Shown piece after piece: positions 19,411 through 60,300 of a stretch of DNA of 64,000 nt. The notes under the pieces were generated by a model. The model saw only the letters and a list, made by a program, of their open reading frames with translations, had not been told where the DNA came from and did not search any database. The translations under genes and the position numbers were made by a program. The stretch is taken from positions 1,897,548-1,961,547 of the forward strand of contig JADCRB010000066.1 of the NCBI GenBank assembly GCA_021464245.1, read 5' to 3'. The DNA is from Carallia brachiata (taxonomy: Eukaryota; Streptophyta; Magnoliopsida; Malpighiales; Rhizophoraceae). The first letter of the stretch is position 1; every line of letters starts with the position of its first letter.

Positions 19411-19920
19411 TGAAGGCAGAAAGGTGCATAAACAACAGAACAGGATGATTACAGCAGAAACACAGCAAGTGCAAAACCAGGAAATGCAGAGAATAGAAAC
19501 GGAAGAAAAGAGAAGAAAGACACAAATTGTGGGCAAAAGTTGAACCCACTACAATGTACTTTCATTTATATATAATCTGAAAATACAAAGCAATTGCAGA
19601 ATTACATGTATCTGCAGCAGTGGTACAAGAAATACATAATGATCTTGTCTAACTTTGCAAGCAACCACCAACTATCCACTAACAAGGGTCTAAGATAACT
19701 TGCTTACAAAGAAAAGGTACAAGGAATGGCATCCCATGCTTGTTTAATAAAACAAGCTTACAAAGTAAAGCAAATTACATAATTAATCAAGCTAACAAAA
19801 GATTAAAAATTGAACACTTGCTTTGCTGCTCTATGTTCTGCATAATCAGCACTGCAGAACCTTGAAGTGAGCCAAAAACAAAAGCTCCAATGTTCAATGA
19901 CAACTTCCTCAGCTTCATCA
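19411..19920 (-). repeat. 3' LTR of the young copia element
   Basis: On the plus strand it runs from tgaaggcaga to agcttcatca. In element orientation it starts TGATGAAGC and ends CTGCCTTCA. Confidence 0.94.
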
Positions 19921-24044: not shown

Positions 24045-24555
24045 TGAAGGCAGAAAGGTGCATAAACAACAGAACAGGATGATTACAGCAGAAACACAGC
24101 AAGTGCAAAACCAGGAAATGCAGAGAATAGAAACGGAAGAAAAGAGAAGAAAGACACAAATTGTGGGCAAAAGTTGAACCCACTACAATGTATTTTCATT
24201 TATATATACGCTGAAAATACAAAGCAATTGCAGAATTACATGTATCTGCAGCAGTGGTACAAGAAATACATAATGATCTTGTCTAACTTTGCAAGCAACC
24301 ACCAACTATCCACTAACAAGGGTCTAAGATAACTTGCTTACAAAGAAAAGGTACAAGGAATGGCATCCCATGCTTGTTTAATAAAACAAGCTTACAAAGT
24401 AAAGCAAATTACATAATTAATCAAGCTAACAAAAGATTAAAAATTGAACACTTGCTTTGCTGCTCTATGTTCTGCATAATCAGCACTGCAAAACCTTGAA
24501 GTGAGCCAAAAACAAAAGCTCCAATGTTCAATGACAATCTTCCTCAGCTTCATCA
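24045..24555 (-). repeat. 5' LTR of the young copia element
   Basis: 511 bp, aligning end to end with 19411-19920. Differences by eye are one C/T in the acaatgta run, two in the tatata region, one G/A near the end and one extra T. Confidence 0.94.
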
Positions 24556-25060
24556 GTATTGTACGTAAAAACATCTGGTGAAATGCCTTTAGCCGACATT
24601 TCGGAGAGAAAAGAACCAAGGCCTCATTAACTAGCCTATCCTTACAAAGATGGTCAATGATTGTGGTATATGCCACCACATCTGGCTCACAACCCCTATC
24701 TTCCATTAACTTGAAGAACTGTAGAGCTCCACTACCATCACCAACCTTACACAGACCTTTCAATATAGTGCTGTAAGTAAATAGATTAGCTCGACAGCCT
24801 TTCGTCACCATATCATCAAAAAAACTCACCGCTGCGTTGGTCTTGCCCTGTATAATAAGTCCATTGATAAGCGAATTAAACGTCTCCTGCTGCGGAGAAA
24901 ATCCAAGTTTCAACAATTTCCCAAAAATGGAAAAACCTAACTCGGCCCGTTTCAAACGACAGAAACTGTTAATCAAAATATTCAGGCCTGTTATATCAAA
25001 TCTAATCCCCAAAAATTCTACTTGTCTAAACAAGGAGACCACAGTGGCATTTGCCCAGGG
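24556..25060 (-). pseudogene. RFL-type PPR gene, 5' part (truncated N-terminus)
   Basis: Begins abruptly around NATVVSLFRQVEFLGIRFDI and runs through TGLNILINSFCRLKRAELGF, FNSLINGLIIQGKTNAAVSF, FTYSTILKGLCKVGDGSGAL and VAYTTIIDHLCKDRLVNEAL. One extra T near 24,610 shifts the frame just before the ...ISPDVFTYN helix. Past that point the frame joins the sequence left of the copia element exactly at the gtatt target site. The organelle transit peptide and the first ~100 residues expected for RFL proteins are absent. Upstream is poly-A/T DNA, so the gene was already 5'-truncated. Confidence 0.85.
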
Positions 25061-26450
25061 GAAAAAAAAATTTATATTCTTTTGGAAAATCCAACAATTG
25101 TAGGTTTTTTTTTTTCATGGAACCAATTATATTTTTATTTTGTCACTCATTACTCCTCCTTTTGTGTTTCGAATAAATTATCTGGTTTGCTGTTTTCAAA
25201 AGCTCAATACCATGAGAAAAGGAACTTTCAACTTGACAATGAGCCGGGAAGCACAGCGCTCTCGGACAAAGTCTATACTCGGCTTATATCAAAGTTGCAT
25301 GGACATCGGTAAATAGATATGGTAGATATATATACAATGATATATTAACTTTAAAAAAAATTAAGATATAGATATAGTATAAACACGTATGTGTATGCAC
25401 ATGCACACACATACTTACGTTTATATGCACATATAAATTTAAGTAAATATTATTTTTAAAATTATAACTTAAATTTTAAATTAAATTAAATTTTATTGTT
25501 AAAATAAATTTTGTAATTATTTTTTGAGTATAGTTGAAATTTTATAATATGCTAAGTATTAATATAAAATAGCAATAAAACTTTTAAAAAAATTTAAATT
25601 TTTTCTTTCTAACGCCTCTTTTGAAAATAAAAAAATTAAAAAAAAAAAGAAAAGAGGATAGCCTATCAATCATATGATATAGCTTAGTGATAATGTGACG
25701 TACTTTCTTCAATATTAACCTAAATTCGACTTTTTGCGCTGACATTTCTTCTAAACAAAATAAGATTTAAATATGAGTATAATATTAAGTTTTAAATTTA
25801 TTAACACTATAGTTAAATTTGAAAGAGACTCATTCAGACAAACAATACTTTAGTAATAAATTTTTCCTATAAAAAAAGTTAAATAAAAATATTAATCATA
25901 TAAAAATCGATCTCAACTTATAAATGTTATGATAAAAATACTTGTAAGCACCTAAAAGTAAAAAAAGCACAAACGACAAAATATAGGTACGTATCATTTT
26001 GAATTTAGTGCGCGAATGATACGTATTCCAAAGAAAAATAAACGGAGAAACTAAAGAAATTAAAAAAAAGAATAAAACATAGTGACTATAGCACTATTAC
26101 AAATAAATGCATCTGCTATTTTTTTTTTAATTTTATTTTTTTATTTACAGACATATTAAATTATAAGATATATAATAAAAATAATTATTTTTTTTCTTAT
26201 AAACTATATAAACCTCCCCAACAATTAGAACCTAAAAATTTAAGATATATGTCTATTTTTAAACATTGACGCATCATGATTGCTATTATTTTTTTATAAC
26301 ACTAATTCTGTTTAAAAGTAATTACTTATCAACTATGCTTTTACATTTTCAAATTCTCTAGCATTTGGGAAATGATGCATGTGTACATATAACACAAAAA
26401 TTTTAAAACAAACGAAACAATCGTGCATTTCCTAATAATAAGAATCTTTA
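25061..26450. other. AT-rich intergenic DNA with a perfect hairpin
   Basis: No genes were recognised. An 11-bp perfect inverted repeat (tacgtatcatt/aatgatacgta) lies at 25988-25998 and 26015-26025 around a 16-nt loop. The last five bases (cttta) are the left target-site copy of the following gypsy element. Confidence 0.5.
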
Positions 26451-27097
26451 TGTAAACGTATTTAAAAAAAAAACAAGAAAAAAGAAAAAGTCAAGTCTTT
26501 TGGCAACGCCGACGCGGAAAAATATTTTCAAAAAAATATTCCTTTCCCATGTGATGTTCACATGGGAAAGGAGCTCTATAAATAGGTCATCGGCCCTCAA
26601 TTCAAAACGCATTCAGCAAATCTGTAAACAGAAAAATTCAAAAAATTTGAGAGAAAAAAAAATTTTTGAAAATCTTCAAAAAAATTTCTCCTTTTCTTAT
26701 ATATTTTACGCTGCAGTATACTCTTCTAATTCCTTTTTGAGAGATATTTCAGGGGTAAGCCCAAAATTTATGTAGCTCATTCGAGAATAAGTCCCTTCGA
26801 CCCTCGGTGAAATTAAGGCAGATCGGCTCAGATCAGGTCTTTGCGGTTCTTAACCGTAGTCTAAACGTCCAAATCAGATCCAATTTCAGTCTATTCAGTT
26901 CAAGATAAAGCTGTGGAAATTATTTCTGTCAAGATTAAGCTCGTGCAGCCCATGACGGAGTCAAAAAAGGAACACTAATCGGAAGATCTACGGAGATCGA
27001 CCCCACGTAAATTTTCTTTTATTTTTAATTTTTTATTGTAATTTATTGTTTGTATTTTCGAGCCTAACTGTTACAGGCTCGATATTTACCCGTTACA
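26451..27097 (+). repeat. 5' LTR of the Tat-type gypsy element
   Basis: It starts tgtaaacgta and ends acccgttaca. It includes a 13-bp perfect inverted repeat (26541-26571) and a TATAAATA box at 26577-26584. It pairs with the right LTR. Confidence 0.88.
26541..26584 (+). promoter_or_regulatory. LTR core promoter: palindrome plus TATA box
   Basis: CCTTTCCCATGTG and its exact complement CACATGGGAAAGG (26541-26553, 26559-26571) surround a 5-nt loop. Five bases later comes TATAAATA (26577-26584). In the right LTR the same palindrome, with one mismatch, precedes TATAAATA at 35860-35867. Confidence 0.7.
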
Positions 27098-27334: not shown

Positions 27335-29090
27335 ATGGCACCAAAAAGAAGTACAGCTACCGGTACCAACAAGAAGGCAAAGGCTCCATTGCCTGCATCG
27401 ACTACCCTACCTAGGTACACAGGCCCAGAAACTCGTGGACGGACACTTTCTCGCCGTTTAAACTCAACAAAATATTGAAACAGAAAATCCACAGCTCGCA
27501 CAGCAACAAGATCTCTCCCCTAATTCTCTTGCCGCATGGAAAAGTCAATCACTCACCCCGATCGAAGTCGGGGGCAACACGATGAAACCTGCTCAATAGA
27601 ATCCAACATATTCTGTAGAATTTTGTACAGAAGAATTAGAGGAATCCCCTACCCCAGTTTTTCGTGGAGCCTCATCTGTTGCAGTTATGATGACCAACAC
27701 AACAAGCACAGAAGAAAGGATTTCAGAATTGGAGAACAAGATTTTGCAGCTGATCAGAGTTGTGGGGGAAAAAGATCAACAGATCGCCGCTCTTAAAGGA
27801 AAAGCCCCGATCCAAATTGATCCTGATCCGTGAGGAGCAACCATATCCACCCGGTTTCACCCCAAAAGCCACACCAGCCGACGTCTTCACTGCAGAATAG
27901 TGACCAAGTAGTTCTACACAGTTGCCACCCTCAAATTCTGTAGCTTCGCTATCTGTTCAACAATTGCAAGGAAATGATAGCTAGTAGATCCGCCTGCAAC
28001 AAGTTACATCCTTCCAAGGATCACAGATGTACGTCAAATCGTATACCAGACGGATTAAAAGTCTCAACATGCCCTTGGGCTACCAACGCCCAAATTTCAA
28101 CAATTCGACGAACGAGGCGATCCCAAATAGCACATCGCCCACTTCATTGAAACCTGCAACAATGCAGGGACTTACAGAGATCTCTTGGAGAAGCAGTTTG
28201 TTCGTTAACTCAGGGAGACCGCTTTCACCTGGTTCATAAATCTTGAACCAAAATCGATTGATAGTTGGGAACAACTACAACGAGAGTTCCTCAACAGATT
28301 TTTCAGCACTCGAAGGACAGTAAGTATAATGGAGCTTACCAGCACCAAATAAAGGAAAGGAGAACCTATTGTCGAGTACATCAACAGATGGCGTGCTCTT
28401 AGCTTGGACTGTAAAAATCGACTAACAGAGACTTCTGCCGTAGAGATGTACATCCAGGGAATGCATTGGGAGCTGTTATACATCCTACAGGACATCAAAC
28501 CCTGAACCTTCGAAGAACTGGCGACCTACGCACATGATATAGAGATAAGCATCCAAACTTCCGGGGGCACGGTTCCCATCCAGTTGGACTAGCAAAGAGG
28601 CAGAAGGGAGATTAAGAAACCCAACGAATCCGGAAAAGGAAAAGAAGTGATGACTGTTGAAGCCACACCAATAAAAGTGGGAGCCAAAGTTAAGGTAAAT
28701 CCTCCGACTCAAATAACTCAACCAAAACAACAGGAAAGGCGGAATGTGACATTGCGAGAGTTGGAGCAGATGCAGTATCCATTCCCCGACTCAGACGTTC
28801 CCGACATTCTTGAACAACTCTTTGGAGGCAAAGCTGATCGAACTCCTAGAGTGCAAGCGGCCCAATGAAAACGATCGAGTCAACGATACAAGATTCTGCA
28901 AATATCACCGCATAGTAAGTCATCCAACCGAGAAGTGTTTCGTCCTGAAGGAGTTAATCATGAAGTTCAAGAGCCAGAATAAAATCATTCTGGCCCAGGA
29001 AGGCGTAACCTCTGCAAACCAGACCACCATCACTTCAAAACCATCAGAAGAGGTGACACACCGTAAGGAAGAGCCGCTTGACAACTAAAA
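27335..29090 (+). pseudogene. Tat-type gypsy gag, degenerate
   Basis: ATG 27335 opens MAPKRSTATGTNKKAKAPLP, which stops after about 48 codons. The retrotransposon gag domain is recognisable further on: LNMPLGYQRPNFQQFDERGD near 28,065, INLEPKSIDSWEQLQREFLN near 28,235, STRRTVSIMEL, KGEPIVEYINRWRALSLDC near 28,360, EMYIQGMHWELLYILQDIKP near 28,445 and TFEELATYAHDIEIS near 28,510. These match the gag of widespread plant Ty3/gypsy proteins. A final segment (FCKYHRIVSHPTEKCFVLKE) is a degenerate knuckle-like C-terminus. Several stops occur. Confidence 0.8.
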
Positions 29091-32000
29091 GTTGACAACG
29101 AAGAATGTATATGAAGCTCTCCAAACCGTTCTCGCTAACCATCAGCTGTTTACAGCTTTGCAATCAATAGAAGTGTGGCAAAATCAAGTCAGCAATACTC
29201 TCCAGACCTCAGCTGGATCTCTACTATCAAGTAATTCCAACTCGACGGAGCAACAGACGGCCCAAAATCACGTCGGATGTTACTCCGCTATCTCATTTCA
29301 AATGAGGATCTCCTGCTGGAGTCCAAACTCCACAATTGGCCGCTGTATGTGTCAGGCTATGTGAGAGAACAAAAGGTCTGACGTATTCTGATCGACGATG
29401 GCTCGGCAGTCAATATTATCCCAAAATCCGCCATAAAGGAGCTCGACATTGACATTGATGATTCATGGCTTTAATCAAGGAGGACAGAAAGCAATTGGGA
29501 TGATTCGTTTGGAGCTAACTATCTGTAATCTCACTTCTAGCACTCTATTTCATGTGATCGATGCATGTACCACATATAAGATGTTGCTAGGACGACAGTC
29601 GATTCATGGAAATAGAGTTGTGCTCTCAAATCTACATCAGTGCTTCAAGTACTACAAGGATGGCGTTCAAAAGGTCAATGCTGACTTAAAGTCGTTCGAT
29701 GATGCTGAAACACATTTGGCGGATGCAGTCTTCTACACCGACACAGACAATCCGGAGATCATTCCTTCAAAAGCTACTTGGACTGGGGGCATCCACAAAA
29801 AGAAAAAAAGCTGTTGAAGAACTTGCCAATGCTCAACCTCAGACTCCGACAAATGAAAAGCTGCCACAGCTTGCTGAACAGGAGTAAGGACATAGCCAAC
29901 CAAGACAAAAGAACTGCACAACCTGAAGGGGACTTACACTCTGCCGATACCAAAGATTGAGCCGGTTTTGTCCTCAAAACCATTAAAAGGCTTCGTCAGA
30001 CCACACACGGGGACAGTCGAAGGCGGCTCACTTCCAGAAAGAAGAACACACGAAGGATTTGATCCTAATACATACAAGCTTTTGGCCAAGGCGGGCTATG
30101 ACTTCTCAAAACCCGAGCACAATGGGTACGCTGCTATCCACACATGGCACTGCTTCTCAAATATCACAGTCCCGACCTGGCTTAGGCTATCAGGAGAAGT
30201 CACCTGTGCGAATCACACTAAGGAGCCGAAGCCGAGCAGCTGATGCGCGTGCCATCACCACCACCACCAAACAAGACAGGCCTATCCAGTCAAACAAAAA
30301 AGATGAAGTCAGGGGCTCTACATTTCATGTCACAATTAGCGAGGAGGCTGAGTCCAACTCATCAGACAGCGAAGTAAATGAGGCTCTCCCGGAACTTGAA
30401 GATGGTGGCCAAGTAACTGTTGATGAACTCAAGGAGGTCAATCTTGGCTCTCCAGAAGATCCCCGACCTACATTTGTAAGTGCTTTACTTACTGCAGAAA
30501 AAGAGCAAGAATATGTTCAGGTATTAAGTCAATACAGGGACATGTTTGCATGGAGTTAAAAAGAAATGTTTGGACTTGACCCAAAAATTGTGGTGCATCG
30601 TCTAGCAGTAAAGAAAGGTGTTCGCTCTGTCAAGCAGCCACAACAACGATTCCGCCCGGAACTCATTCAACAAATCGAGGGAGGAGGTTAACAAGCTGAT
30701 CAATGTTGGCTTCATCCGAGAAGTTACCTACCCAACATGGATTGCCAACATAGTCCCGGTAAGAAAAAAGAATGGGCAGTTGAGGGTGTGTGTTGATTTT
30801 CGATATCTTAACAGGGCCTGCCCGAAAGATGACTTTCCGTTGCCCATAACGGAAATCACAATCGATGCAATAACAGGTCAAGAAGCATTGTCCTTCATGG
30901 ATGGTTCTTCAGGCTATAACCAAATCAAAATGGCACCAGAAGACGAGGAGTTGACAGCATTTCGCACCCCAAAAGGTATATACTGTTACAAAGTTATGCC
31001 GTTTGGATTAAAAAATGCTGGCGCCACTTATCAACGTGTCATGCAAAAAATTTATGATGACATGCTGCACAAGATTTTAGAATGTTATGTTGATGACTTA
31101 GTTGTAAAGACTAAGAAGCGCAAAGACCACCTCGAGGATCTCAAGACGGTGTTTGAAAGACTTCGCAGGCATCAGCTTAAAATGAACCCTCTCAAGTGTG
31201 CATTCGGTGTCACATCAGGCAAGTTTCTTGGGTTCGTGGTGCGCTATCATGGAATCGAAGTTGATCAGTCAAAGGGTGAGGCAATTCAAAAGTTGCCTGA
31301 ACCTAAAAACCTGCACGAGCTACGAAGTTTACAATAAAAGCTGGCCTACATTCGTCGTTTTATTTCCAACTTAGTTGGGAGATGCCAACCTTTCCATCGG
31401 TTGATGAAGAAGGATGTCAACTTTGAGTGAGACGAAACTTGCAGTAAAGCCTTTGAGAGCATAAAGAAGTATATTTCCAATCCACCAGTCCTGAGTGCTC
31501 CAATTCAAGGAAAGTCGTTGATTCTCTACATTGCAGCACAGGAAAGATCTTTGGGAGCCCTGCTTGCACAGGAAAATGAGCAAGGAAAGGAAGTTGTCCT
31601 GTATTACTTGAGCAAAACACTAAACGGTCCGGAGCTGAGCTATTCGCCCATTGAAAAGACATGTCTAGCACTCTTCTTTGCCATCGATAAGCTAAGGCAT
31701 TACATACAAGCTCACATGGTACGTCTCATTGCCAGAGCTGATCTTGTCAAATATATCTTATCTAGACCGATCTTGTCAGGACGACTTGCCAAGTGGGCAG
31801 TAATCCTACAGAGCTACGACATTGTCTACGTGCCTCAAAAAGCAATAAAGGGACAAACCCTAGCAGATTTTCTAGCAGATCACCCTGTCCCGTCTAATTG
31901 GAAGTTCACTGGCGATCTTTCAGATGAAGAGGTCTTTTACATTGAGACACTGCCACCATGGACGATGTTCTTTGATGGTGCAGCAAGACGTGATGGTGCT

Positions 32001-33663
32001 GGTGCCGGCATAGTGTTTGTCACTCCTCAACGACAAATACTGTCATATGTTATCATTCTCGGTGAGTTATGTTCAAATAATGTTGCTGAATACCAGGCTT
32101 TAATCATTGGTCTTCAAATGGCTGTCGATATGAATATTCCAACTATAGAAAGTCCATGGAGATTCCCAGCTCGTCATCAACTAACTCACAGGGTTGTATG
32201 ATGTGAAGAAAGAGGACCAAGAAAGAGGACCTTGCACCTTACCATCTCGACAGCTAATGGATGAATTTGAAAGCATCACCTTGGAGCATGTGACTCGACG
32301 AGAAAACACTCAGGCAGACGCGTTGGCTAATCTGGCCACTTCTCTTGCAAAGTCAGAAATTCAGGCTACAATTGTTGCCGTATGTCAGAAATGGATAGTG
32401 CCACAGAAGGATGATGAAGAAACTACAGCAGCCAATGCTGTATCTGTATGACTCGCGGACGACGAAGATTGGCGCCAACCAATCATTGACTATCTACAGA
32501 ACGGGAAGCTGCTCGAAGATCGTCGACATAAGACAGAAATTCAACGACGAGCTCCACACTTCATATATCTCAAGGATGTTCTATTTCGAAGATCTTTTGA
32601 TGGAGTTTTGCTTCGCTGCCTAGGCAATGAAGAGGCAAAACGAGCTCTCGCTGAAGCACATTCAGGTGTTTGTGGTGGACATCAATCGGGGCCTAAGTTG
32701 TACTTCAACTCAGAAGGATGGGATACTACTGGACAACCATGGTACGTGATTCCATTGAGTTTGCTAAAACCTGTCAAGCTTGTCAATTTCATGCCAATTA
32801 CATACATCAACTACCAGAGCCACTGCATCCAACTGTCTTGTCCTGACCCTTTGAAGCTTGGGGTCTTGACTTAGTGGGGCTCTTGCCAAAGTCATCTCTG
32901 GGTCACCTGTACATCTCGCAGCAATAGACTACTTCTCAAAATGGGCCGAAACTATTCCACTTAGAGAGGTAAAGAAGGAGCATGTTGCCAATTTCATCCA
33001 GACTCAGCTGATCTATCGCTATGGAGTCCCTTGATTCATCATCACTGATAATGGTAAGCAGTTCTACAACAACTTGATTGACAAGCTCTGCGAGAAGTTC
33101 AAGTTCAAGCAGTACAAGTCATCCATGTACAATGCCCCGGCAAATGGCTTGGCCGAAGCATTCAACAAGACCTTATGCAACCTATTGCGGAAGGTAGTCT
33201 TTAAATCCAAAAGAGATTGGCATGATAGAATTTCGGAGGCGTTATGGGCGTATCGTACAACTTACCGGACTCCGACACAGGCGACGCCATACTCACTTGT
33301 CTACGGTTGAAGCAATACTGCCATTGGAAACACAGATTCCATCTCTGCGCATGGCTGTTCTGGAAGGATTTACACAGGAGGACAATGCTCGCCTACATCT
33401 GGATGAGTTAGAAGCCCTCGATGAAAGGAGGCTTGAAGCACAACAGCAACTTGAGTGCTCCCAAACCCGGCTCACCAACACGTTCAACCGCAGGGTCCGC
33501 CCTCAATCTTTTCGAGTTGAAAATCTTGTTCTTACAGTGCGACAACCCATCAACATGAAGCACCGGCTTAGTGACAAGCTTACTTCCAAATGAGATGGGT
33601 CATACTTAGTGCAGGAGGCCTATACTCACAACGCTTACATGCTGTCAGACCAAGAAGGCGTCT
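29091..33663 (+). pseudogene. Tat-type gypsy pol (PR-RT-RNH-aRNH-INT), degenerate
   Basis: Protease motif ILIDDGSAVNIIPKSAI lies near 29,385. Reverse transcriptase spans 30,700-31,340, with VCVDFRYLNRACPKDDFPLP, MPFGLKNAGATYQRVM and the catalytic YVDDLVVK (about 31,085-31,108). RNase H follows (about 31,515-31,750, LYIAAQERSLGALLAQE). A second RNase H of archaeal/host type starts at about 31,965 (MFFDGAARRDGAGAGIVF, SNNVAEYQALIIGLQMA). Integrase is visible as AEAHSGVCGGHQSGPKL (about 32,655), a degraded core, GLAEAFNKTLCNLLRKVVFK (about 33,145) and the C-terminal ...ECSQTRLTNTFNRRVRPQ. Stops and frameshifts occur at many points (for example 30,560, 31,336 and 32,450). Confidence 0.87.
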
Positions 33664-33729
33664 GAATCGGCCTGATCAATGGTAAATTTATGAAACAGTA
33701 TTATGTGTAAATATGTTTTAAAAAAATCA

Positions 33730-34020
33730 AAAAAAAAAGTTGGGAAGTCCCGATCTGAAAGTCCAAGTGAAAATCCAAATCCAAAAATCCTAACCCAAAC
33801 ACTTGAGCCCAATTCACAAAACTCAAAACCCAACTCAAAAGCCTGAAAACTAAGTCCAGATGCAAAACCCAAACACTCGACCCAAATCCAAAAAAATCCA
33901 AGTCTAGAAGCCCAAACACTCGACCCAAATCCAATTCAAAGCCCAAAACCCAAAAATTCCAAGTTCCAAACACAGTCCAAAACCCAAATTCAAAATCCAA
34001 TCCAACTCCTGGCCCGCATG
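33730..34020 (+). repeat. C/A-rich low-complexity tract (cccaaa-type) before the WUS-like ORF
   Basis: Irregular repeats of words such as cccaaatccaaa, acactcgaccc and aaaacccaa with very little T or G. It separates the end of pol from the TATA-like sequence and the WUS-like ORF. Confidence 0.8.
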
Positions 34021-34045
34021 AGTATAAACTGTGAACGGCCCAAAA

Positions 34046-34053
34046 ATATAAAA
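34046..34053 (+). promoter_or_regulatory. TATA-like sequence upstream of the WUS-like ORF
   Basis: atataaaagc lies about 90 bp before the ATG at 34142, at a suitable distance for a separate transcript. It is a single short match in AT-rich DNA, so it is only suggestive. Confidence 0.4.
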
Positions 34054-34141
34054 GCGACAGAGGGTTTGAGTCTGAAACTCAGCATCAGTCTCAACTGATC
34101 TTCACCACCTACCAGACCTTTGCTCCTCTGCCACAAGAAAG

Positions 34142-34754
34142 ATGGAACTAGTTGCAGAACCTCAAGACAAGGGAGAAGAAAGGTCACCCCACACAAGGTG
34201 GCAACCAACCATGGCACAATTGCAAATTTTGGAGGAAGTCTTCCACAACAATGGAGGTATTATTCCTAATGCATCTCAGATTTACCAACTTGTCTCACGA
34301 TTGCGCCCGCTCGGTACAATCGAAGGAAAAAAAAGTATTTTATTGGTTCCAGAATCGGAGAAGCAGGAAGAAACCAGCACTGAGAGCTGTTTTTTTCAAA
34401 GAACAGTCTGTCGTTCCGATAGTAAATCCCACCGGTACAACTTCGCCCTCAAATGAAGCAGGTCCGAGTTCTACCACTACAATGATCTCTTCAGGCTATA
34501 ACGATCAAAGGCGTAGCCTGTAGGAGCATGCGTACTGGTCCTGGTGGTCTTACGGAGTCAGCTAAGGGTTCATCCCTCTTAAGTACTTAAGTCTAGAAAG
34601 AATTTTTCTAGCAAAAAGGAGTCATTCCAGCGAAACTTTGCTTCTATTTCCAGAATATTCCTGCAGTATCAACCAGCCGGAAAGCGACGTCAACATCATC
34701 GGCCCACCAAACGAGGTCGAGCTTGACTTAGAGCTGTACCTCGGGCCCCGCTAG
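34142..34754 (+). pseudogene. WUSCHEL-like (WOX, WUS-clade) homeobox gene carried inside a gypsy element
   Basis: The ATG at 34142 opens MELVAEPQDKGEERSPHT and a WOX-type atypical homeodomain at about residues 19-80: RWQPTMAQLQILEEVF (helix 1), NNGGIIPNASQIYQLVSRLR (helix 2), then GTIEGKK and VFYWFQNRRSRKK (helix 3, the WOX signature). Downstream in the same frame as helix 3 come a WUS-box ETLLLFPEYS (canonical TLxLFP) and a terminal acidic EAR-like VELDLELYLGPR, ending at TAG 34752-34754. This order is that of WUS-clade stem-cell regulators, transcriptional repressors. It is broken by one extra A in an eight-A run (34327-34334) and by TAG 34521-34523 and TAA 34563-34565. It lies between pol and the 3' LTR in sense orientation, with no intron. 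Confidence 0.85.
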
Positions 34755-35090: not shown

Positions 35091-35712
35091 ATTTTTTGAT
35101 CAAGAAATTGGAGGCGCACGAGTTAAAAAAAAAAGGAGTAGTCTTCCTCGAGGGATCCCTAAAAGCCCTCGAAACTCAACCTCCAACGTCATCGGTGTCA
35201 TGGAGTTCCAACTACTCTCCTTAGTTCACATGTACCATAGAGGGATGAGACGCTGCAATCATCCTAATCTTCCTTTAGATGCAACGACGTACAGGGAAGT
35301 TCCAACTACTCTCCTTACGTCGAAGCAGACTTGGAAATCATCACTACAGTCAGTCTCTCTGTGTGCCGGTTTTGAAGTTCCGAAGTCCTAGGCCTTCCTC
35401 TTGGGAGGTTCAAGTTTTTTGCCTACCGGATCATTCTCAACAGAGCTTTGGAACTTCAAAAAACTTTTGCCAGCCTTTGCGAGCTATGAAAGCTCGACCG
35501 CACCTGGAGTCAAAATGTCAATTTTTATATTGGATGGGGTGCTAACTTTCTCAAGATCGTATCGGGTTCCTATTGCGATCCAACAACAGCAAGCATGGTC
35601 AGAGATAGAAGATTTCGACATTCATTGTTCATCAGGACATCTCAAATTTCAAATTGGTCTTCAAGACTCGGTGCGGATCACGTCTGTAAAGTTCTTCTTT
35701 ACCGACCCTTGA
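35091..35712 (+). pseudogene. Unrecognised additional ORF of the gypsy element, one stop
   Basis: A frame of about 207 codons opens after a TAG near 35,088 and ends at TGA 35710-35712, interrupted once by TAG at 35389-35391. The likely start is ATG 35200, or an upstream start lost. Visible text includes RVKKKRSSLPRGIPKSPRNS (basic N-terminus), MEFQLLSLVHMYHRGMRRC, GSSFLPTGSFSTELWNFKKL and DFDIHCSSGHLKFQIGLQ. I recognise no family. It sits 12 bp before the 3' LTR and runs into the polypurine stretch. Such sense ORFs after integrase are called aORFs in Tat elements. Confidence 0.55.
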
Positions 35713-35724
35713 AGTGGAGGTATT

Positions 35725-36526
35725 TATAAACGTATTAAAAAAAAAAGTCAAGTCTTTTGTCGGCGTTGCCAATTTCAAAATTGGCAATGCCGACACGGAA
35801 AAAAATTTTTCAAAAAAAATATTCCTTTCCCATGTGATGTTCACATGGAAAAGAAGCCCTATAAATAGGCCCTCGGCCCCCAGTTCAAAATACATTCAGC
35901 AAATCTGTAAACAGAAAAATTCAGAGAATTTGAGAAAAAGAAAATTATAAAAATCTCTTAAGAAAATTTCTCCTTTTCTTACGTGTTTTACTCTGCAGTA
36001 TACTCTTCTAATTCCTTTTTGAGAGATATTTCAGGAGTAAGCCCAAAAAAAAATTTGCTGTTTCCATTTCTAAAATTATTTTTAGGTTTATATTCTCGGA
36101 TCGATCTAGATCTGAATTTATGAGAATATAGATCTAAAAATACTAAAATATTACAAATCCGGCTGGGATCAAGCCTCATACGGCCCTCAGCAAAATCCAG
36201 GCAGCTCATTCGAGAATAAGTCCCTTCGATCCTCGATGAAATTAAGTCAAATCGGCGCAGATCAAGTCTTTGCGATTCTTAACTATAGTCTAAACGTCTA
36301 AATTAGATCCAGTTTCAGTCTACCCAGTTCAAGATAAAGCTGTGGAAATTATTTCTGTCAAGATTAAGCTCGTACAGCCCTTGACGGAGTCAAAAAAGGA
36401 ACACTAATCGGAGGATCTACGGAGATCGATCCTACGTAAATTTTCTTTTATTTTTAATTTTTTATTGTTATTTGTTATTTATATTTTCGAGTCTAACTGT
36501 TACAGACTTAATATTTACCCGTTACA
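35725..36526 (+). repeat. 3' LTR of the Tat-type gypsy element
   Basis: It starts tataaacgta (the TG end mutated to TA) and ends cccgttaca. It carries a 36-bp near-perfect palindrome at 35759-35794 that is only half present in the left LTR, the TATA-proximal palindrome, and about 145 bp absent from the left LTR. A purine-rich tract (gaagtggagg) precedes it. Confidence 0.87.
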
Positions 36527-36726
36527 CTTTGGATAGAAATAATTCACATTTGTGCAGTAAATTCATCACAACCATGTCATCACTCGGTCCCACACCTTTG
36601 TCGTATTTGATGATGGTTTAAATGCCAATGTAGAAGGCACATGGGCTGCCAACAAGAAACATTTAATTAATTTGCTGCCTCGTACGTCCTTAGAGAGAGA
36701 TGTCTGTCAGTTTACCATTTAACTTT

Positions 36727-37761: not shown

Positions 37762-40525
37762 TTGAAATTCATTAGTGTTATATGCATTGCAGGTGTAGAA
37801 CAGTTGAGCTGTGGAATAGTTAGTGTGTTTGAAGAGGATCGAGGGAGAAAAGGTGAAGTTTACAGTGATTGTATGGAGCAGCAAAATGGAATAGAAAATG
37901 GGGATGAGGGGGAACCAACTGTTGGAATGATATTTAAGGAGCATGAAGAAGTGTATTTGTTTTACAAAGCGTATGGAAAATCAAAGGGCTTTGGGATATG
38001 TAGACGTGACAGTAAGAAGAATGAAATGACTGGGGATGTTAGGTGGATGACCTTCACGTGCACTAAAGCACGGGAACACAAGTCAAAGGGGAAGAATTTG
38101 TTAGCACCACGACCTAGTGGAAGAATTTCGTGTGGAGCTCGAGTTTGCACAGCAAAGAGAGAAGGGTTGTGGATGATAAGTAAGGTAGTGTTAGCGCACA
38201 ACCATGAGATTAATCCGACAAGTTCTCGATTTATAAGGCAACATCGAGAAGTGGATGTCCATAGTAAACGGCAGTTAGAATTGAATGATATGGCAGGATT
38301 ACGACTGTGTCAAAATGTCAAAGCAGTCATTTATGAAGTAGGCGGACATGAGGAGATGACATGTCTTAGTGTCGATCTAACCAACCATGTGAATAAAGTT
38401 CGTAGGTTGCAACTAAAAGATGGGGATGCTGAGGCTATTCATGAATTGTTTGGCAAGTTGCAGAATGAAAATAGAGATTTTGTATACGTGATAAAGCCAG
38501 ACAAAGAAGGTAGGTTGAAACATGTATTTTGGGCTGATGGGAGATGTAGGGCAGCTTACCAGGAGTTTTGTGATGTTATCACATTTGATACCACCTATCT
38601 TGTCAATAAGTATGACATGCCGTTTGCATCTTTTGTTGGTGTGAATCAGCATAGGCAGTCCATTCTCTTAGGCTGTGCTCTAATAAATAATGAGAAGTCG
38701 AAGACCTACAAATGGTTGTTTGAGACATGGTTGAACTGCATGGATGGGAAGTGGCCTGATGCAATAATCACATATCAATATGGAGCTATTAGGGAAGCTG
38801 TTAGGACTGTTTTCCCTAATACTCGACATAGGTGGTGTCTATGGCACATTTTATGTAAGATTCCATCTAAATTTACAAGAACGATGAATATGATGATGTT
38901 AAAGATGCATTTATGGAAGCAGTCTATGATACCTTAACAGTTGAAAATTTTGAGGAGAAGTGGTCGAGCATGCTATTTAATTTTCAGCTAGAGTCTAATG
39001 AATGGCTAGCCAATATGTATGAAAATAGGAAGCGGTGGGTTCCAGAGTTTTTGTTAGATCATCCTTTTGGACTGGAATGTCATCAACCCAAAGGAGTGAG
39101 AGCATGCATTCATTTTTTGATGGATTTGTGCACGCAAGGACATCATTTTGCCAGTTTGCACAACAATATGGTCTAGCAGTGCAAGATAAGGTGGAAAAGG
39201 AGAAACATGAGGATTTCTTGTCTTTGAATTCGATAATTCCTTGTGTGACTCGATTTAAGTTTGAGGTTCAACTTCGTAATGCTTACAGTAACAATATTTT
39301 TAGGCTTGTGCAACAACAGTTGACTAATATCATGTATTGTGATATGAAAATTGTGACCCAAGTAGGAACCAATGTAATCTGTGAGGTTGTTGAGATGGTT
39401 GAAAGTGGTAGTAAAAGTAATACATGGTTTAGGTTCATAGTTCAATTTGATGTGGAAAACCAGACTTTTGAATGTAATTGTAAGTTGTTTGAGTTTTATG
39501 GGTATTCTTTGTGCACATGTTTTCAAGGTCATTGCTATACAGGATATTCAAGTGATACCTGACAGATACATCCTGAGGAGATGGAGGAAGGATGTTGTGA
39601 GACGTCATAGCTCAATGACAACAGGTTTGCCTTCAGCATCGATAGCAATCCAGCGCACAAAACAATTGGAAAATGCATTTTATTATATAGTTGAGAAGAC
39701 AGTTAATGAGGAGAGTAAGTTTGAATCTTTTTTGAGAATCTTGCATGACCACAAGAGTAGCCTAGATAATGTAACTAGCGGCTGTCCAGGTTCATTTGGA
39801 CAGCAAGATGGGAATAGTGGTCATGGTAAAGGAAAAGATGATGAATCATCTAAGAATTCCTCTAAAATAACCTATAAAGATCCAGTAATTGTTCGCCGAA
39901 GGGGGCGACCAAAAAACAAGAGGCCTGTATCTTTATTTGAGAAAGCAAGTTGTAAAACATTTACTAGGAGGAGGCAAAAGAGTGTTAGGACCCCACATTC
40001 TGTGCAGAATATTAGTGGACCGTCTGCAAGTTTATTACAGCAACATGTTTGGCTAATATACTCGGTGAACATAGTATAGCTTATATGTTAATTGACAATT
40101 TACAAAGAAAATAAGAATATTATGTTTTTGTCTTTTAAATTTTAGGCAAATGGAGTACAACTTCAACCTCCTGGAGTCTATTCTATATGGCTAGTGGGTA
40201 GTTTTGGTGCACCAATCCCTTTAGACACAGGAAGCCAGGTATGACATAAATTACCTTTGTTTATTGGTGGAAAAATTTATGGATTTTATATGATAACTTG
40301 CGGTGTATCATTTATGTAGGGAGTAATCATGTGTTTACTTTGTAGTAAGGGAAATAGGTTACATTACACAGGTATTTGGAGTTGAAGGTTAAGCTTAATT
40401 AACTGCTATCTTTATTGGTCATAATGGTTGCACAGGTCATGCTACGACAATCACATTTACCTGCAGGATCACATCAGCCATTCTTTGGACTAGCTTCCCC
40501 AAATCTGTACCCACTGAACACATAG
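37762..40525 (+). pseudogene. FAR1/FRS-type MULE transposase, spliced, frame-broken
   Basis: Related to MURA transposases and their domesticated FHY3/FAR1 descendants. The likely start is the Met of MEQQNGIENGDEGEPTVGMI; sequence before it may belong to an upstream exon. The FAR1 zinc-finger domain (EEVYLFYKAYGKSKGFGICR to VVLAHNHEINP) is followed by the MULE transposase domain (VITFDTTYLVNKYDMPFASF; WLFETWLNCM; HRWCLWHILCKIPSKF; STQRSESMHSFFDGFV), a SWIM finger (FECNCKLFEFYG, CAHVFKVIAIQDIQ) and the tail RRRGRPKNKRPVS. The main exon ends at 40064 (gt donor). Two small phase-0 exons, 40146-40238 and 40436-40525, finish the frame at TAG. Frameshifts lie near 38,890, 39,060 and 39,510. The usual TDQD motif reads TYQY. 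Confidence 0.85.
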
Positions 40526-41096: not shown

Positions 41097-44000
41097 CGGA
41101 AATTTTTTTTGTGCAACCAACAAACTTATTTGTGCAACAAAAAATAGATGAAAAAATACTCTTAAATTTTGTTGCTATAATTGAACGTCTCGTTGCACAA
41201 ATAATCCACTGGTTGCACAAAAAAATTTTCCCATCTCCGCCACGTCTTCATTTTCCCGTCCCCCTACATTTAGCGTTTTATTGTAAGATGACAACAAACC
41301 AAGTTGTTACCGAAAGTTTACTAAACATGAACTGCATGATGCTTTGTGTCGGAGGTGACATAGGTAACAAGGTGCTCGACTCATGGATTGTTTTTGACTG
41401 TAGTGTAGCTGTTTGAAGGCCCATTTATGTAATGAAGGAATGGGCTTGTCAAAGGCCCTAGAAGATGCTCGAGTGCCTTTATATTTTCCCAGAATAGAAC
41501 TAAACAAAAAAATTCATTATTTAAATAATAATAGTGGGAACAGCGCGAGAGATTGGATGAATGAGGTAAGTTGAGGCCTACGATGTGTTGGATTGCGCAT
41601 TGACTTTTTTAATAGGAAAAGATGTATGGCCAGATGAAAAGTTTGTGTAAGATTTTCCCGACGAAAAAAGATAGGTGGCCGGCGAATAAATTGCCGGAAG
41701 ATGTTCTTGTATTGCAACCTATTTGATTAATTGTGCAACTAGTTGGATCTATTGTACAATAAAAAGATAATGATTTTTTTGTTCCCGTTTAGTTGCACTT
41801 GTAATTAAGATAGTTGCACAATAAATCTAACAAGTTGCATTATGAATTTTTTATCGGCCACTTCCTCCGGCCATGTAAGAGGACCCCCGACGAATTGTAA
41901 TTTGTTGGGAATTTTTAACAATCAGCTGGATTCATTATCCAAGAGAAGCATAGTGAGTTTTGTCCTTCTTTTGATTACACATAGAAACAAGATAGTTGCA
42001 AATGAATATAACAAATTGTACGCTAGAAATTTCTCCAACCATGTATTAGTACTGAATAAGTCACAAGAGCATATTGTGATGACAATTTCAGGTGTTTTGT
42101 TTTCGGGTCTTGTTATATGGCTGGAAAAATTTGTTGGAAAATTTTCTGTAATGCAACTTGTTGTATTAATTGCGCAACCAAATGGATCTATTGTACAGCA
42201 AAAAAATAATGATTTTTAGCCCTGTGTAGTTGCACTTGTAACCCAAATAGTTGGACAATAAATCCAAGAGTTGCATTTCGAAATTTTTTTGGCCACTACG
42301 TCCGACCATGTAAGATGATCCTTTTCTGAATTGCAGTATATTGGAAACTTTTAGCAATCAACTGGATTCTTTGTTCAAGAAAAGCATAGTGAATTTTGTA
42401 CTTCTATTGATTACGCATAGAATCAAGATAGTTGCACAATGAATATAACTAGTTGCATTTTAAAAATTTCTACAACCCTGTAATAGTCCCTGAATAAGTC
42501 ACAGGGGCATATTGTGATGGCACTAGGGACGGATCTAATATAGGAGGAGGGGGGCAATTGCCTCCCTCCAAAGTTTAAGTAAAGTACAATTATAGGAAAA
42601 AATGTCTCAAAAAGTAGCCCTTGTCGTAGTGGATCTCGCCTTCTCCCCCCCCCCACATCATTGATGTCGCAGGTTCGAGAGAAAGGGGGCATAATTTTGG
42701 GTGTTTTTTTTTTTTGGTTTTGTTACATACCTAGAAAAATTTGCTTGAAAAATTTCCGTACTGCAACTTTTTGGATTCATTGTGCAACTGTCTTCATTAC
42801 AACTACAACTAAAAAAGGGAAAAAAGTTTATGAATATAATTAGTTGCAGTTACAGAAGATATTCAGGCAACTTCTTCTCGGCCATACAACTTTTCCCTTT
42901 CCATTTTGGGAAAAGTTGTATGGCCAAAGCAACAGTTTCTCGAAGAATTTCGGGAACTGCAACCAGGTTGATTCATTGTCCAATCAATTGGATTCTTTGT
43001 CTAACGAAAGGATAGTGATTTCGTTCCTTCTATTAGTTGCACTTGTTATGAAAACTTTTGCCCAATGAATCTCACAATTATTATCTTTTTGTTGCACATT
43101 AAATCTACCAATTGGCACAATGGATCAACCTCATTGCAGTTACCAAAATTCTTCTAAAAACTTTTTCTCCGGTCATACAATTATTTCCTTTTCACTTTGG
43201 AGGGAATAGTTTCATGACCAAAGACAAATTCTTTATTAGAATTTCCAGATTTGTCTTTTTTAGATTTCATTTGTCACTAGCTGGATTCATTGTGCAACTA
43301 GGTAATAGTAATTTTTTTGTTTGTTTTTTAATTGCACTTGTAATTCATAACCTTGCACAACGGATGTAGTGAATTGCAATTCAGCAACTTATCCGACCAT
43401 TTACTTTAGCCATGTAACAGTACCCGCTTTCCCATTTTGTTTCTTTTTTTTTTTCATTTTATGGCTGGAGAAGAAGTTGCCGGAAGATCGTTTGAAACTG
43501 CAACCTTTTGGATTATTTATACAACCATTTTGATTCATTGTGCAACAAAAAATATTAATTTTTCCCCTTTAGTTGCACTTGTAATAAACATAGTTGCACT
43601 TGTAATAAACACAGTTGCACGATAAATCTAACGAGTTGGATTCTAGAAATGTTTTTGGCCACTTTCTTCAAAAAGTTGTAATCAAAACACTTGTAACAAT
43701 AGTTATGGGTATTGTTACATGCTCAGGGAAATTGGCAGGAAAAATTATTGGAATGCAACTTGTTGGAATCATTGTGTAAATGTCTGGATAACAAGTGCAA
43801 CTAAAAGAGAGTAAAAAATTTATGGTGCACTATGAATCCATCTGATTACACGATGAATCTAGCTGATTGCAGTTCTATAACATCTTCCTACAACTTCTTC
43901 TTCGGGTGTACCACATTTGCAAAGAAGGGAATATATAAGGGTGCTGTTACACGGCCAGAGAAATTTGCCCAAAAAATTGATAGAATGCAACGTTTTGGAT

Positions 44001-44140
44001 TGTTTGTGCAAATGTCTTGATTGAAAGTGCAAGTAAAAGAGGAAAAAAAAAACCATTATCTGGATTCATTGTTGCACAATCAATCTAGCTGATTGCCCAA
44101 TTTATCCATCTTGTTGCAGTACTGGAAGATCTTTTGGAAA
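41097..44140. repeat. GTTGCAC/GTGCAAC-rich repeat array in the MULE interior
   Basis: By eye there are about forty occurrences of GTTGCA or its complement in 3 kb, mostly as gttgcacttgtaat, gttgcacaataaatct or atgcaacttgttg, within degenerate larger units. One clear unit of about 437 bp is duplicated (the block at 41,792 recurs at 42,230, and the one at 41,995 recurs at 42,432). Repeated sub-ends of the form ggg-n-n-tgttacatggc, and their reverse gccatgtaacagtaccc, occur at about 42,105, 42,716, 43,410, 43,707, 43,938 and 44,175. No ORF is plausible here. Confidence 0.75.
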
Positions 44141-52923: not shown

Positions 52924-53422
52924 CGGACAAAAATTCTAAATTGGTGCCTAACGTTTGGGCTATGATTTAATTATAGACACAATATTTTTTTTTGGTAAAA
53001 TTAGTCCCCAACATTTTGGTTAAGGTCTAATTAAAGACAAAACATTTTTTTGGCAAAATTAATTCTAATATTTTCACTGTAGAATAATTTAATAGTTTTC
53101 TAATTATTTGACTGTCTAATTTATTAAAAAATACAATATTTGTTAGACTATCTCTTTATAAGATACAATATTATTAAAAATATAAAAAAAAGAGGTGGTC
53201 TAATAGATTATATACTTTTTAATAAATTAGACAGTCAGATAACAAAAAAATATTAAATTATTCTATAGTAAAAACATTAGGGACCAATTTTACCAAAAAA
53301 AATGTTGTGTCCTTAAATAGGCCTTAACCAAAACATTGGGGATTGATCTCACAAAAAAAAAAACGTTGTATCTGTAATTGAACCATATTCCAAACGTTAA
53401 GCATTAATTTAAAATTTTAGCC
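52924..53422. mobile_element. Fold-back MITE, probably Mutator-like
   Basis: Nearly the whole ~500 bp is one imperfect inverted repeat. The left arm reads ggacaaaaattctaaattgg...cctaacgtttgg and the reverse of the right arm reads ggctaaaattttaaattaat...cttaacgtttgg. Arms of about 200 bp meet near 53,170. Flanks share aaaagat (52917-52923 and 53423-53429), extendable to 9 bp with two mismatches. A long TIR with a GG start and a possible 9-bp TSD suggests Mutator. Confidence 0.7.
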
Positions 53423-56780: not shown

Positions 56781-57380
56781 TGATGCGAACCCCGCGGATA
56801 GCACCGGAAGACCCAACGCCTATAGGGAGACGCGAACCCCACGGATACACCGAAAGACCCACGAACGAGATTGAAAATCACAACCCAAGGAAAGCCAAGT
56901 CAGGTTTGAAGGAACCTTGACCCAACGTCTATATGGAGACGCGAACCAAAGGTATAAGAAGATTTGTAGACGCCACACCCTAGAAAAGGAAGAAGGAGGG
57001 TGATAAGTCTAGGTTGAACGCCACAAGGAGGTATCCTTGATAAGTTCGGTAAAAGAGTTTTGAAACTCCAAAGAACGATTGTTCTAATTCTCAATTCATC
57101 AAAATTCCCCAAAATAAGAGTCTTACAAGCCTATTTATAGGCAAACCCAAGTAACTAGGGTTTTCAAAACAAAAGACAACTAAAACTAGAAAACCAAGTT
57201 CCTACACCAATAAGGAAAACCTAATTCAACTAGAAACTTGAGAATTAAAGCTAATTCCTACTTGGAAAAGGATTGGGCTTAACTAAAACATTGTCCAGCC
57301 CAAAACATTAATTAAAATCCTAAATTTAACATCCAAATCAGTTCATACATAGCCGTGTATGCACTAGGCCCAATTACTCA
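56781..57380 (-). repeat. 3' LTR of the gypsy unit
   Basis: On the plus strand it runs from tgatgcgaac to caattactca. Element-sense ends are TGAGTAATT...GCATCA. It contains two 28-bp copies of gacccaacg-ctatag-gagacgcgaac (about 56,811 and 56,919). The inner border is set at the TGA that is both pol stop and LTR start, supported by TG...CA ends. Confidence 0.82.
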
Positions 57381-60300
57381 TGTCGGCCCAAACTTGTCTT
57401 CTTGCACTCGAACCATGTTGACATAAACTTGAGGCACCACCGAGTAATCTTGACCTCCAAATGCTTTGCTTAACATCCAAGAAACTCCTTGAATGCCAAG
57501 GCAGCCTTCATGCACGTTGCTTGTGGCCCAAGCATCCTTCACCAAAGCACTTAGAGCCTCCTTGAGCTTTTTAGCTCTACTTCTCGTGATCGGTCCATCT
57601 AGAATGTGCAAAGGATCCCTTGAATTGGTCTTAATGCTACCTTGGTTGCCATCATTCCCCCTCTCCTCAAAAGGATTTGTCCTCAAATCGTCACCTACAT
57701 CAAAAGGAGAAAGGTCAGAAACATTAAATGTAGCACTCACACTATACTCACCTGGAAGGTCCAACTTGTAGGCGTTGTCATTGATGCGTTCAAGCACTTG
57801 AAATGGTCCATCGCCTCTTGGTTGCAACTTGGAACGCCTTTGAGCAGGAAACCTCTCTTTCGCATATGCACCCAAACCCAATCTCCAGGTTCGAATACAA
57901 CCTTCTTTCGCCCTTTGTTGGCTTGATTAGTATATTGTTCGGTCCTCTTCTGGATGTGTTGTCGCACCTGCTCGTGCAACTGCTTGACCATCTCAGCCTT
58001 CTTCTTTCCATCTAAACTAGCTCGCTCCTCAACTGGCAAAGGCAACAAATCCAATGGTGTAAGTGGATTGAAGCCATACACAACCTCAAATGGAGAGCAA
58101 TTGGTAGCTGAATGGACACTCCTATTATATGCAAACTCCACATGTGGCAAACACTCCTCCCAATTCTTCAAGTTCTTTTGGATGACAGAACGCAGCAATG
58201 TGGTCAACGTTCTATTCACCACTCGGTTTGTCCATCAGTCTGAGGATGACAAGTAGTCGAGAACAAGAGTTTGGTTCCCAACTTTCCCCACAATGTTTTC
58301 CAGAAGTAACTCAAGAACTTCACATCTCGATCTGAAACAATGGACCTTGGCACACCATGCAACCTCACTACTCTCGAAAGAACAAATCAGCCACATTGGT
58401 TGCATCATCACTCTTGTGACACGGAATGAAGTGCGCCATCTTCGAGAACCTGTCAACAACCACAAAAACAGAATCCCTACCCTTCCTCGACCTAGGCAAA
58501 CCCAAAACGAAGTCCATAGAATGTCTACCCAAGGTTCACTAGGTATGGGCAAAGGGGTATAAAGACCATGGGGTAAGACTCTAGACTTGGCTTGCTTGCA
58601 TGTGACACACCTATCACATACCCTCTCGACGTCTCTTCTCATATGCGGCCAAAAGAAATGCTCAATCAGTACATCTAAAGTCTTCCTAACACCAAAGTGT
58701 CCCATTAAACCACCCCCATGAGCTTCTCTCACCAGCAACTCCCTTAAAGAGCTCTTAGGCACACACAATCTATTCTCTCTAAATAAGAATCCCTCATGCC
58801 TATAGAACTTCCCAAATGCTCCTTTCTCACAAGCTTCGAACACATTAGCAAAGTCAGGATCATTAGCATATAAATCTTTGATGTACTCAAATCCCAACAA
58901 CTTAGTATTCAAAGTAGAGATTAGGGCATACCTTCGCGACAATGCATCAGCCACAACGTTCTCTTTGCCTTGCTTGTACTTGATCACATATGGGAACGTC
59001 TCTATGAACTCCACCCACTTAGCATGTCGCTTATTCAACTTACCTTGACCCTTAAGGTGCTTCAAGGACTCATGATCAGTGTGAATCACGAACTCCTTAG
59101 GCCACAGGTAGTGCTGCCAAGTCTCCAAAGCTCTCACCAATGCATACATCTCCTTGTCATATGTCGGGTAGTTAAGTGCTGCTCCACTCAACTTCTCACT
59201 GAAGAATGCAATGGGGCGCCGCTCTTGCATCAAAACAGCCCCTATTCCTATACCTGAAGCATCACACTCAACCTCAAAAGTCTTAGAAAAATTAGGTAAA
59301 GCAAGTAAAGGTGCAGAAATTAGTTTTTCTTTAATCAAATTAAAAGCACTCTCTTGCTCGCTTCCCCACTTGAATCCAACACTCTTCTTCACTATCTCCG
59401 TCAATGGTGCGGCTAGGGTGCTAAAATCCTTGACAAACCTTCGGTAGAAGCTAGCCAAGCCATGAAAACTACGCACCTCCGAAATGGTCTTAGGTGTAGG
59501 CCAATCACGAATAGCCTTTACCTTCTTCTTCATCCACTTCAATGCCTTTGGAACTGACCACATAACCTAAGAAAACAACTTGATTTGTGCAAAATGTACA
59601 TTTCTTAAGGTTAGCATACAATGTCTCCTTCCTCAACACCTCCAACACACATCTCAAATGCTCAACATGCTCATGCAAATCCTTACTATAGATCAGAATA
59701 TCATCAAAATAAACAACAACAAATCTACCAATGAAAGCACGCAACACATGATTCATCAACCTCATGAATGTACTAGGTGCATTAGTCAAACCAAATGGCA
59801 TAACCAACCACTCGTACAATCCATATTTAGTTTTGAAAGCAGTTTTCCACTCATCTCCCTCTTTCATTCTAATTTGATGATATCCACTTTTAAGATCAAT
59901 TTTGGAGAACACACAAGAACCATGCAATTCATCCAACATGTCATCTAACCTAGGAATGGGATGGCGATACTTTACAGTGATTTTGTTGACCGCTCGGCAA
60001 TCAATGCACATTCTCCACGTTCCATCCTTCTTAGGCACAAGTAACACAGGGACTGCACATGGGCTCATGCTCTCCCTCACATAACCTTTCTTCATCAACT
60101 CAGCAACTTGTCGTTGGAGCTCCTTGGTCTCCTCGGGGTTGCTCCTGTAGGCTGGTCGATTTGGAATTGAAGCCCCGGGAATGAAATCAATTTGATGTTC
60201 AATTCCTCTAATTGGTGGCAAGCCATCAGGCACCTCCTCGGGAAATACATCTTCAAACTCCTGCAAAAGAATACGAACCACACTAGGCAAAGACAAATCA

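Follow-up and report, generated by a model that had tools for sequence, protein, structure and literature searches.

A WUSCHEL-type homeobox gene resident in a high-copy gypsy retrotransposon family of Carallia brachiata

We found that a high-copy family of gypsy LTR retrotransposons in Carallia brachiata carries a WUSCHEL (WUS)-type homeobox gene as a resident part, which recurs at the same position in the element and whose homeodomain is under purifying selection. The copy in the window (the whole stretch of 64,000 nucleotides that was analyzed) is a pseudogene. We put at roughly 70% the probability that this is a selected gene of the element, one that encodes a DNA-binding repressor and descends from an old host WUS-type transcript.

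The broken gene and its element in the window

The first-pass annotation had described a dead, single-exon gene with the hallmarks of WUS-clade proteins, lying in sense orientation between pol and the 3' LTR of a gypsy element, and this description was confirmed (Table 1). The reading frame is broken by one frame change in an A-run near 34330 and by two in-frame stops (TAG at 34521-34523, TAA at 34563-34565), and the two halves of the homeodomain are split over two overlapping frames. Tested separately against the Pfam homeodomain, one half fell short of the curated cut-off (E 0.0039) and the other passed it (E 4e-5). When the breaks were bridged with X, the profile match became clearly significant (E 2.2e-11), and the best PDB match was WUSCHEL (E 2.9e-17, gapless over 64 residues), while STENOFOLIA matched with E 1e-14 and needed one gap; a chance match to the homeodomain was rejected on the Pfam and WUSCHEL values. 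The WUS-box and the EAR-like end follow the homeodomain in this order, in the same frame and 3' of both stops. Since a single frame runs through the WUS-box, a fragment of a multi-exon host gene was rejected as well; the introns of the host WUS genes are absent.

Table 1. Features of the window element and of the homeobox gene that it carries.
Feature	Position	Strand	Basis or remark
Target-site duplication, left (CTTTA)	26446-26450	.	right copy CTTTG at 36527-36531, one change
5' LTR	26451-27097	+	repeat alignment; about 142 bp short of 3' LTR; LTR family seen genome-wide
gag/protease region, broken ORFs	28810-29817	+	corresponding DNA of another copy is 90-93% identical
Reverse transcriptase	30618-31337	+	RVT_1, E 2e-33
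Two RNase H-type domains	31518-32201	+	RT_RNaseH, E 4.8e-22; RVT_3, E 5e-6
Integrase region, broken	32608-33660	+	21 of 30 sampled loci match, at 86-94% DNA identity
Promoter-like/5'UTR stretch	34004-34141	+	conserved among 34 copies; TATAAAA at 34047-34053
WUS-type homeobox gene, pseudogene	34142-34754	+	reading frames, Pfam, PDB match, genome relatives
Homeodomain	34193-34373	+	PDB match, alignment; equivalents of Arabidopsis WUS R38, Q89, N90 and R94 kept
WUS-box (TLLLFP)	34635-34652	+	read directly in the sequence
EAR-like end (LDLELYL)	34722-34742	+	read directly in the sequence
3' LTR	35725-36526	+	repeat alignment

The LTRs of the window element end in TG/TA...ACA. Perfect 5-bp target repeats flank four other copies (CTAAG, TTGAG, GTTGT, and GTATA), while the C164 element has no perfect 5-bp repeat at its ends. 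A segment of about 142 bp in the 3' LTR (36048-36191) is missing from the 5' LTR at 26766; the 5' LTR probably lost it, because this stretch is also covered by the alignments to the 3' LTRs of three other copies. Two ORFs of the gag/protease region gave no Pfam match above the cut-off, and a piece of integrase from one other copy, matching that of the window, hit H2C2 and rve. The element is probably of the Tat type, as it has two RNase H-type domains, the second one before integrase, and such a pair marks the Tat lineage. Between pol and the 3' LTR, antisense ORFs of at least 80 aa lie at 33701-34000 and at 35632-35895, the latter straddling the edge of the 3' LTR.

Several other features were observed in the window. 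An ORF at 37762-38937 combines FAR1 (E 1.9e-15) and a MULE transposase (E 2.3e-30), and the ORFs that follow it at 39035-40079 had no Pfam match. A piece of a PPR gene lies on the minus strand at 24437-25042 (PPR_2, E 1.2e-43). Direct repeats of 820 bp with 98% identity (56781-57599 and 63183-64000), separated by about 6.4 kb, may be the LTRs of another young element, and direct repeats of 511 bp (19411-19920 and 24045-24555, 99% alike) may be those of a short element. There is also a long inverted repeat with 78% self-similarity (52930-53418), and diverged repeats built on TAGTTGCAC motifs occupy 41684-44096.

Among 34 aligned copies of the gene and its surroundings, the mean pairwise identity rises from 0.735 (33942-34003) to 0.950 in the 138 bp before the start codon (34004-34141); the gene itself has a value of 0.935, and the next 420 bp have 0.886. 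The TATA-like site, which had been placed 90 bp upstream, is a TATAAAA 95 bp 5' of the ATG. Since the 138-bp stretch is conserved like the gene and contains this site, the sequence suggests a putative promoter and leader of the gene's own. The same arrangement bears on whether the homeodomain might steer integration or nuclear delivery to certain chromatin, in the way that a chromodomain fused to integrase steers integration in other gypsy elements. The gene is a separate ORF with its own start and a conserved upstream stretch, however, and is not fused to integrase, so that we regard a role in targeting as highly improbable.

Recurrence in the genome and in two classes of element

The assembly (337.5 Mb in 164 contigs) was searched with the read-through protein of the window gene, and the best 150 of 2261 first-look candidates were scored. 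All 150 had E values of 3.9e-101 or lower and nearly all matched end to end. By hand count, 94 of them had no stop inside the match, including L022 and L030, which on closer reading were nevertheless broken at the start. An identical score was shared by 23 of these 150 rows, among them L039 and L040, which are the same at the protein level. With the homeodomain of Arabidopsis WUS as the query, nine host WUS-clade genes ranked first, followed by 141 rows with 52-57% identity; the 23 of these rows that were read all belonged to the element gene family. No viral contigs were found.

For a comparison of context, 30 loci were taken together with 1.5 kb on either side. All 30 matched portions of the sequence that precedes the gene and of the spacer that follows it. 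Integrase of the window type was present upstream in 21 loci, with L035 as an additional case (90 bp at 76%), and an LTR of either of two classes was present downstream in 28; L032 and L036 had no LTR inside the 1.5-kb downstream flank. Conversely, 16 of 38 LTR hits, a set that excludes the window's own pair, had a same-strand WOX copy at LTR spacing (13 at the 5' side and 3 at the 3' side) among the best 150 copies listed. The gene was open in 21 of the 56 other copies that were read, where it encodes 203-209 aa, and in 14 of the 30 sampled loci. The sampled family members thus carry the gene between integrase and LTR, part of them with open frames. The first-pass annotation had left the choice between a captured cDNA and a long-standing element gene; the data support an established element gene, and a one-off capture was rejected on the strength of the 150 scored relatives and of the 16 LTR hits with a WOX copy.

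Most sampled copies bear pol and share the LTR family of the window element. A second class consists of short elements, whose inner sequence is common to eight of the 30 loci (L009, L011, L013, L015, L023, L028, L030, and L035), L028 matching it at 70-77% only. In one such element (L041, at the same place as L013), two LTRs that are 99.0% alike enclose about 3.0 kb of sequence that matches the leader and simple repeats of the window element but not its pol, and the sole sense ORF of more than 200 aa in this interior is an open WOX gene. The target repeat of this element is CTAAG, and its LTR is 78% like that of the window over 213 columns. Open copies made up two of the eight short loci and 11 of the 21 loci with integrase; L019, which does not fit clearly into either class, is open too. 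Because the short class carries the gene without gag-pol, the gene also moves in elements that borrow gag and pol.

Besides the window element, 12 WOX-bearing elements were examined for LTR pairs, and 11 of them yielded one; for C47 there was no 5' LTR in the piece of DNA examined. The pair of C146 shows no substitution and four gap openings over 882 columns, and the amplification of the family is therefore recent. Mismatches numbered 6 in 891 columns for the short element C145, 4 in 937 for C113b, and 6 in 948 for C164, and the other seven pairs were 94.5, 94.5, 94.4, 94.2, 93.0, 91.9, and 91.8% alike. By the time the window copy inserted, at the latest, the gene was part of the family; the LTRs of this copy are 90.8% and 88.5% alike in their aligned parts, i.e. 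about 90%.

Selection on the homeodomain and origin of the gene

Selection was measured on 21 open copies (195-215 aa, starting with ATG, ATA, or GTG) out of 57 rows that had been picked by protein or homeodomain similarity and not at random; the final set was chosen without any homeodomain filter. The homeodomain had a pairwise dN/dS (Nei-Gojobori) of 0.121 (bootstrap 0.05-0.28), compared with 0.615 (0.43-0.90) for the sequence outside it, and the wrong-frame controls for the homeodomain gave 1.22 and 2.36. When only the 14 open copies picked by protein similarity were used, the homeodomain value was 0.128 (0.06-0.30), and it was 0.120 in a filtered set without L027, L011, and L082. A maximum likelihood codon model on the tree gave an omega of 0.288 for the homeodomain and rejected omega 1 (lnL -519.30 vs. 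-527.88, a gain of 8.6, p 3.4e-5). Outside the homeodomain, omega was 0.734 (lnL -1859.13 vs. -1861.30, a gain of 2.2, p 0.037). In the filtered set, the wrong-frame controls for this outer part were 0.76 and 1.11 against 0.65 in the true frame, and since these lie so close together, the weak value there is not dependable. A dN/dS below 1 had been proposed beforehand as a mark of an element gene; the homeodomain is below 1 by either method (0.12 pairwise, 0.29 by maximum likelihood).

Homeodomain variants in the 57 rows were also compared by how widely they are shared. Those found in at least two copies comprised 20 synonymous and 19 nonsynonymous changes, against 18 and 56 for singletons (Fisher p 0.006), and the singletons are near the neutral share. 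Given this contrast, the ranking of the list alone does not account for the signal. When C>T and G>A changes were left out, the test on shared variants lost significance (5 synonymous and 8 nonsynonymous, p 0.28), and in a smaller set treated in the same way the shared variants were 4 and 2 (p 0.054). Neither the linker nor the part from WUS-box to EAR showed a significant synonymous excess among shared variants. Taken together, we read purifying selection on the homeodomain, and so constraint on the DNA-binding part, as firm, and any constraint outside it (dN/dS 0.62-0.73) would be weak. Since the DNA-binding part has been maintained by selection, the element probably benefits from the gene.

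The homeodomain of the element gene is identical to those of two host WUS genes (L044 and L047) at 31 and 32 of 63 residues. At 49-51% identity, a recent copy of a host WUS gene was rejected, and the host WOX genes are not the highly identical relatives that, according to the first-pass annotation, a one-off capture would have. Among the nine host WUS-clade genes found, the 63-residue span is shared only with these two; the other seven (62 residues), like STENOFOLIA, need a gap, and the WOX3-like L051 is identical at 35 of 64 residues but with three gaps and a lower score. In a WOX tree built without WOX8, WOX9, WOX11, and WOX12 rows, the copies from the elements group together (100/100) on a long branch (1.52) amid the WUS-clade rows, where their point of attachment is tentative. 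In the two host WUS genes the WUS-box lies more than 1 kb 3' of the homeodomain, past the end of the open frame, whereas in the element gene homeodomain, WUS-box, and EAR-like end all stand in one frame with no intron, which is why the gene looks like a retrocopied and trimmed WUS-type transcript. A WUS intron just before NVFYWF was ruled out, as the homeodomain is continuous there in the host genes that were read.

The host genes themselves come in pairs, WOX1-like (L043/L045), WUS-like (L044/L047), and WOX4-like (L046/L048), hinting at a genome duplication; these names are presumptive and were given by resemblance.

These data also weigh on the view that a host cDNA was captured once and has been carried unused since, its frames being open only through recent amplification. 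Such a passenger would fit a young family of modest divergence, in which 16 of the 30 sampled copies are not open and constraint outside the homeodomain is weak, and captured gene pieces are described as common in plant LTR elements in a review (PMC13317346). A passenger would not, however, be expected to show rejection of omega 1 for the homeodomain (dN/dS 0.12 to 0.29) and wrong-frame controls above 1, an upstream stretch of 138 bp conserved as the gene is, retention of the gene in two classes of element, and WUS motifs kept despite about 50% divergence from host WUS. For the homeodomain this explanation is already hard to hold, and we consider it quite improbable.

Predicted activity and related elements

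The reading that we prefer, a resident and selected gene for a repressor, draws on the properties of the encoded protein. In the 21 open copies the WUS-box is TLPLFP in 14, TLSLFP in two, and a one-residue variant in five, and 19 end in DLEL[RHP]L. An AF2 model made without an alignment was confident in the homeodomain only, and its 11 best PDB matches in Foldseek were all WUS or STF (STENOFOLIA) homeodomains. In WUS, contact with the co-repressor is made through WUS-box and EAR. As in WUS-clade proteins, homeodomain, WUS-box, and EAR-like end occur in the same order, and the homeodomain keeps, by alignment, the base-reading residues of WUS (R38, Q89, N90, and R94; PMC7203112), the equivalent of R94 being present in 20 of the 21 open copies and lost in L027. 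Recognition helix 3 is otherwise unlike that of WUS (NRRSRKKP vs. NHKARERQ, with NRRSR in place of NHKAR), the protein has only about 203 aa and an intronless gene, and there are at least 150 relatives of the element gene in the genome, the sampled ones lying inside LTR elements.

With homeodomain, WUS-box, and EAR together, the most likely activity is that of a DNA-binding repressor acting in trans. Alternatively, the protein might act as a decoy that occupies the co-repressor or the WUS sites and thereby weakens repression by host WUS/WOX proteins. The kept WUS-box/EAR and base readers would suit this, as would the shortness of the protein (203 aa) and the residue equivalent to the dimer contact F101 of WUS, which by an alignment made by eye is not in register. 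Constraint, in contrast, was found for the DNA-binding part and not for the co-repressor part, and we judge a decoy to be unlikely.

A further alternative is that the protein binds the LTR or the upstream stretch of its own element and tunes its transcription, like small retroviral regulators or the TRP28 ORFs, for which a regulatory role has been proposed (PMC11963269). The conserved 138-bp stretch speaks for this, as do its TGA cores, slightly above chance (9 vs. 6.3, p 0.09), and a nominal excess of TGAA in the inner sequence of the short element (23 vs. 15; p 0.013 before any correction for the 56 tests). Against it, TGAA, TGAT, TAAT, and tandem sites were not enriched in the four LTRs tested, and WUS-type sites were not enriched in the 138-bp stretch. 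We therefore rank the element's own DNA second, behind host genes, as a target, and see self-regulation as rather unlikely, if worth keeping in mind.

For the trans-acting repressor, we hypothesize the following course. The window gene is best explained as a decayed copy of the resident gene of a recently active gypsy family, probably of the Tat lineage, with a WUS-type host transcript as the probable source long ago. Transcription of the gene may start at an upstream promoter of its own or in the LTR; its homeodomain would bind TGA-core sites as WUS does, WUS-box and EAR-like end would recruit a co-repressor of the TOPLESS type, and the protein would repress transcription in trans. The most likely targets would be host genes in dividing cells where the element is expressed, and their repression could ease expression of the element, or relax silencing, in cells leading to the germ line. 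Raised levels of LTR families have been reported for vegetative shoot stem cells (PMC7560203), which makes a host target in meristem or reproductive cells reasonable, though it is not evidence for one. A tentative proposal, which we think may well prove wrong, is that with a captured WUSCHEL-type repressor the family makes or keeps cells stem-like, or eases silencing in stem cells, and thereby gains germ-line insertions.

Two known systems are closest. Retand/Tat gypsy elements likewise have an extra ORF between pol and 3' LTR, and the LTR and internal lengths of the window element are within their published ranges, but their extra ORFs are mostly antisense TRP28, whereas the window ORF is in sense and encodes a WUS-type homeodomain, and their distance from pol to 3' LTR is 2.9-6.6 kb against about 2.1 kb in the window (PMC11963269 and PMC7264820). 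According to the first of these papers, no sense ORF in those elements encodes a known domain (PMC11963269). On the side of the window, the two RNase H-type domains add to the likeness. In Phalaenopsis, gypsy elements carry an AlkB-type m6A demethylase (PMC9289625), where a host-type gene has likewise become fixed with a plausible effect on host control; that enzyme acts on RNA, while the gene described here is predicted to encode a developmental DNA-binding repressor. The domains named in the available part of the same work, a screen of 121 angiosperms, are PMD, G-patch, AIR1, B3, 2-ODD, and others, homeobox not being among them. In titles and the first parts of abstracts of the top-ranked papers, with subscription papers and supplements outside the search, there was no earlier report of a stem-cell transcription factor as a gene of an LTR element.

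Extra genes of host type are known in plant LTR elements but are rare as lasting, selected parts. The numerous element copies may mislead pipelines that count WOX genes. Given the LTR families raised in shoot stem cells (PMC7560203), whether elements act on these cells becomes a question that can now be tested with one defined protein. If the proposal of germ-line gain through a captured repressor is true, we would here have a plant retroelement with a master regulator of its own, by which it manipulates the identity of host cells.
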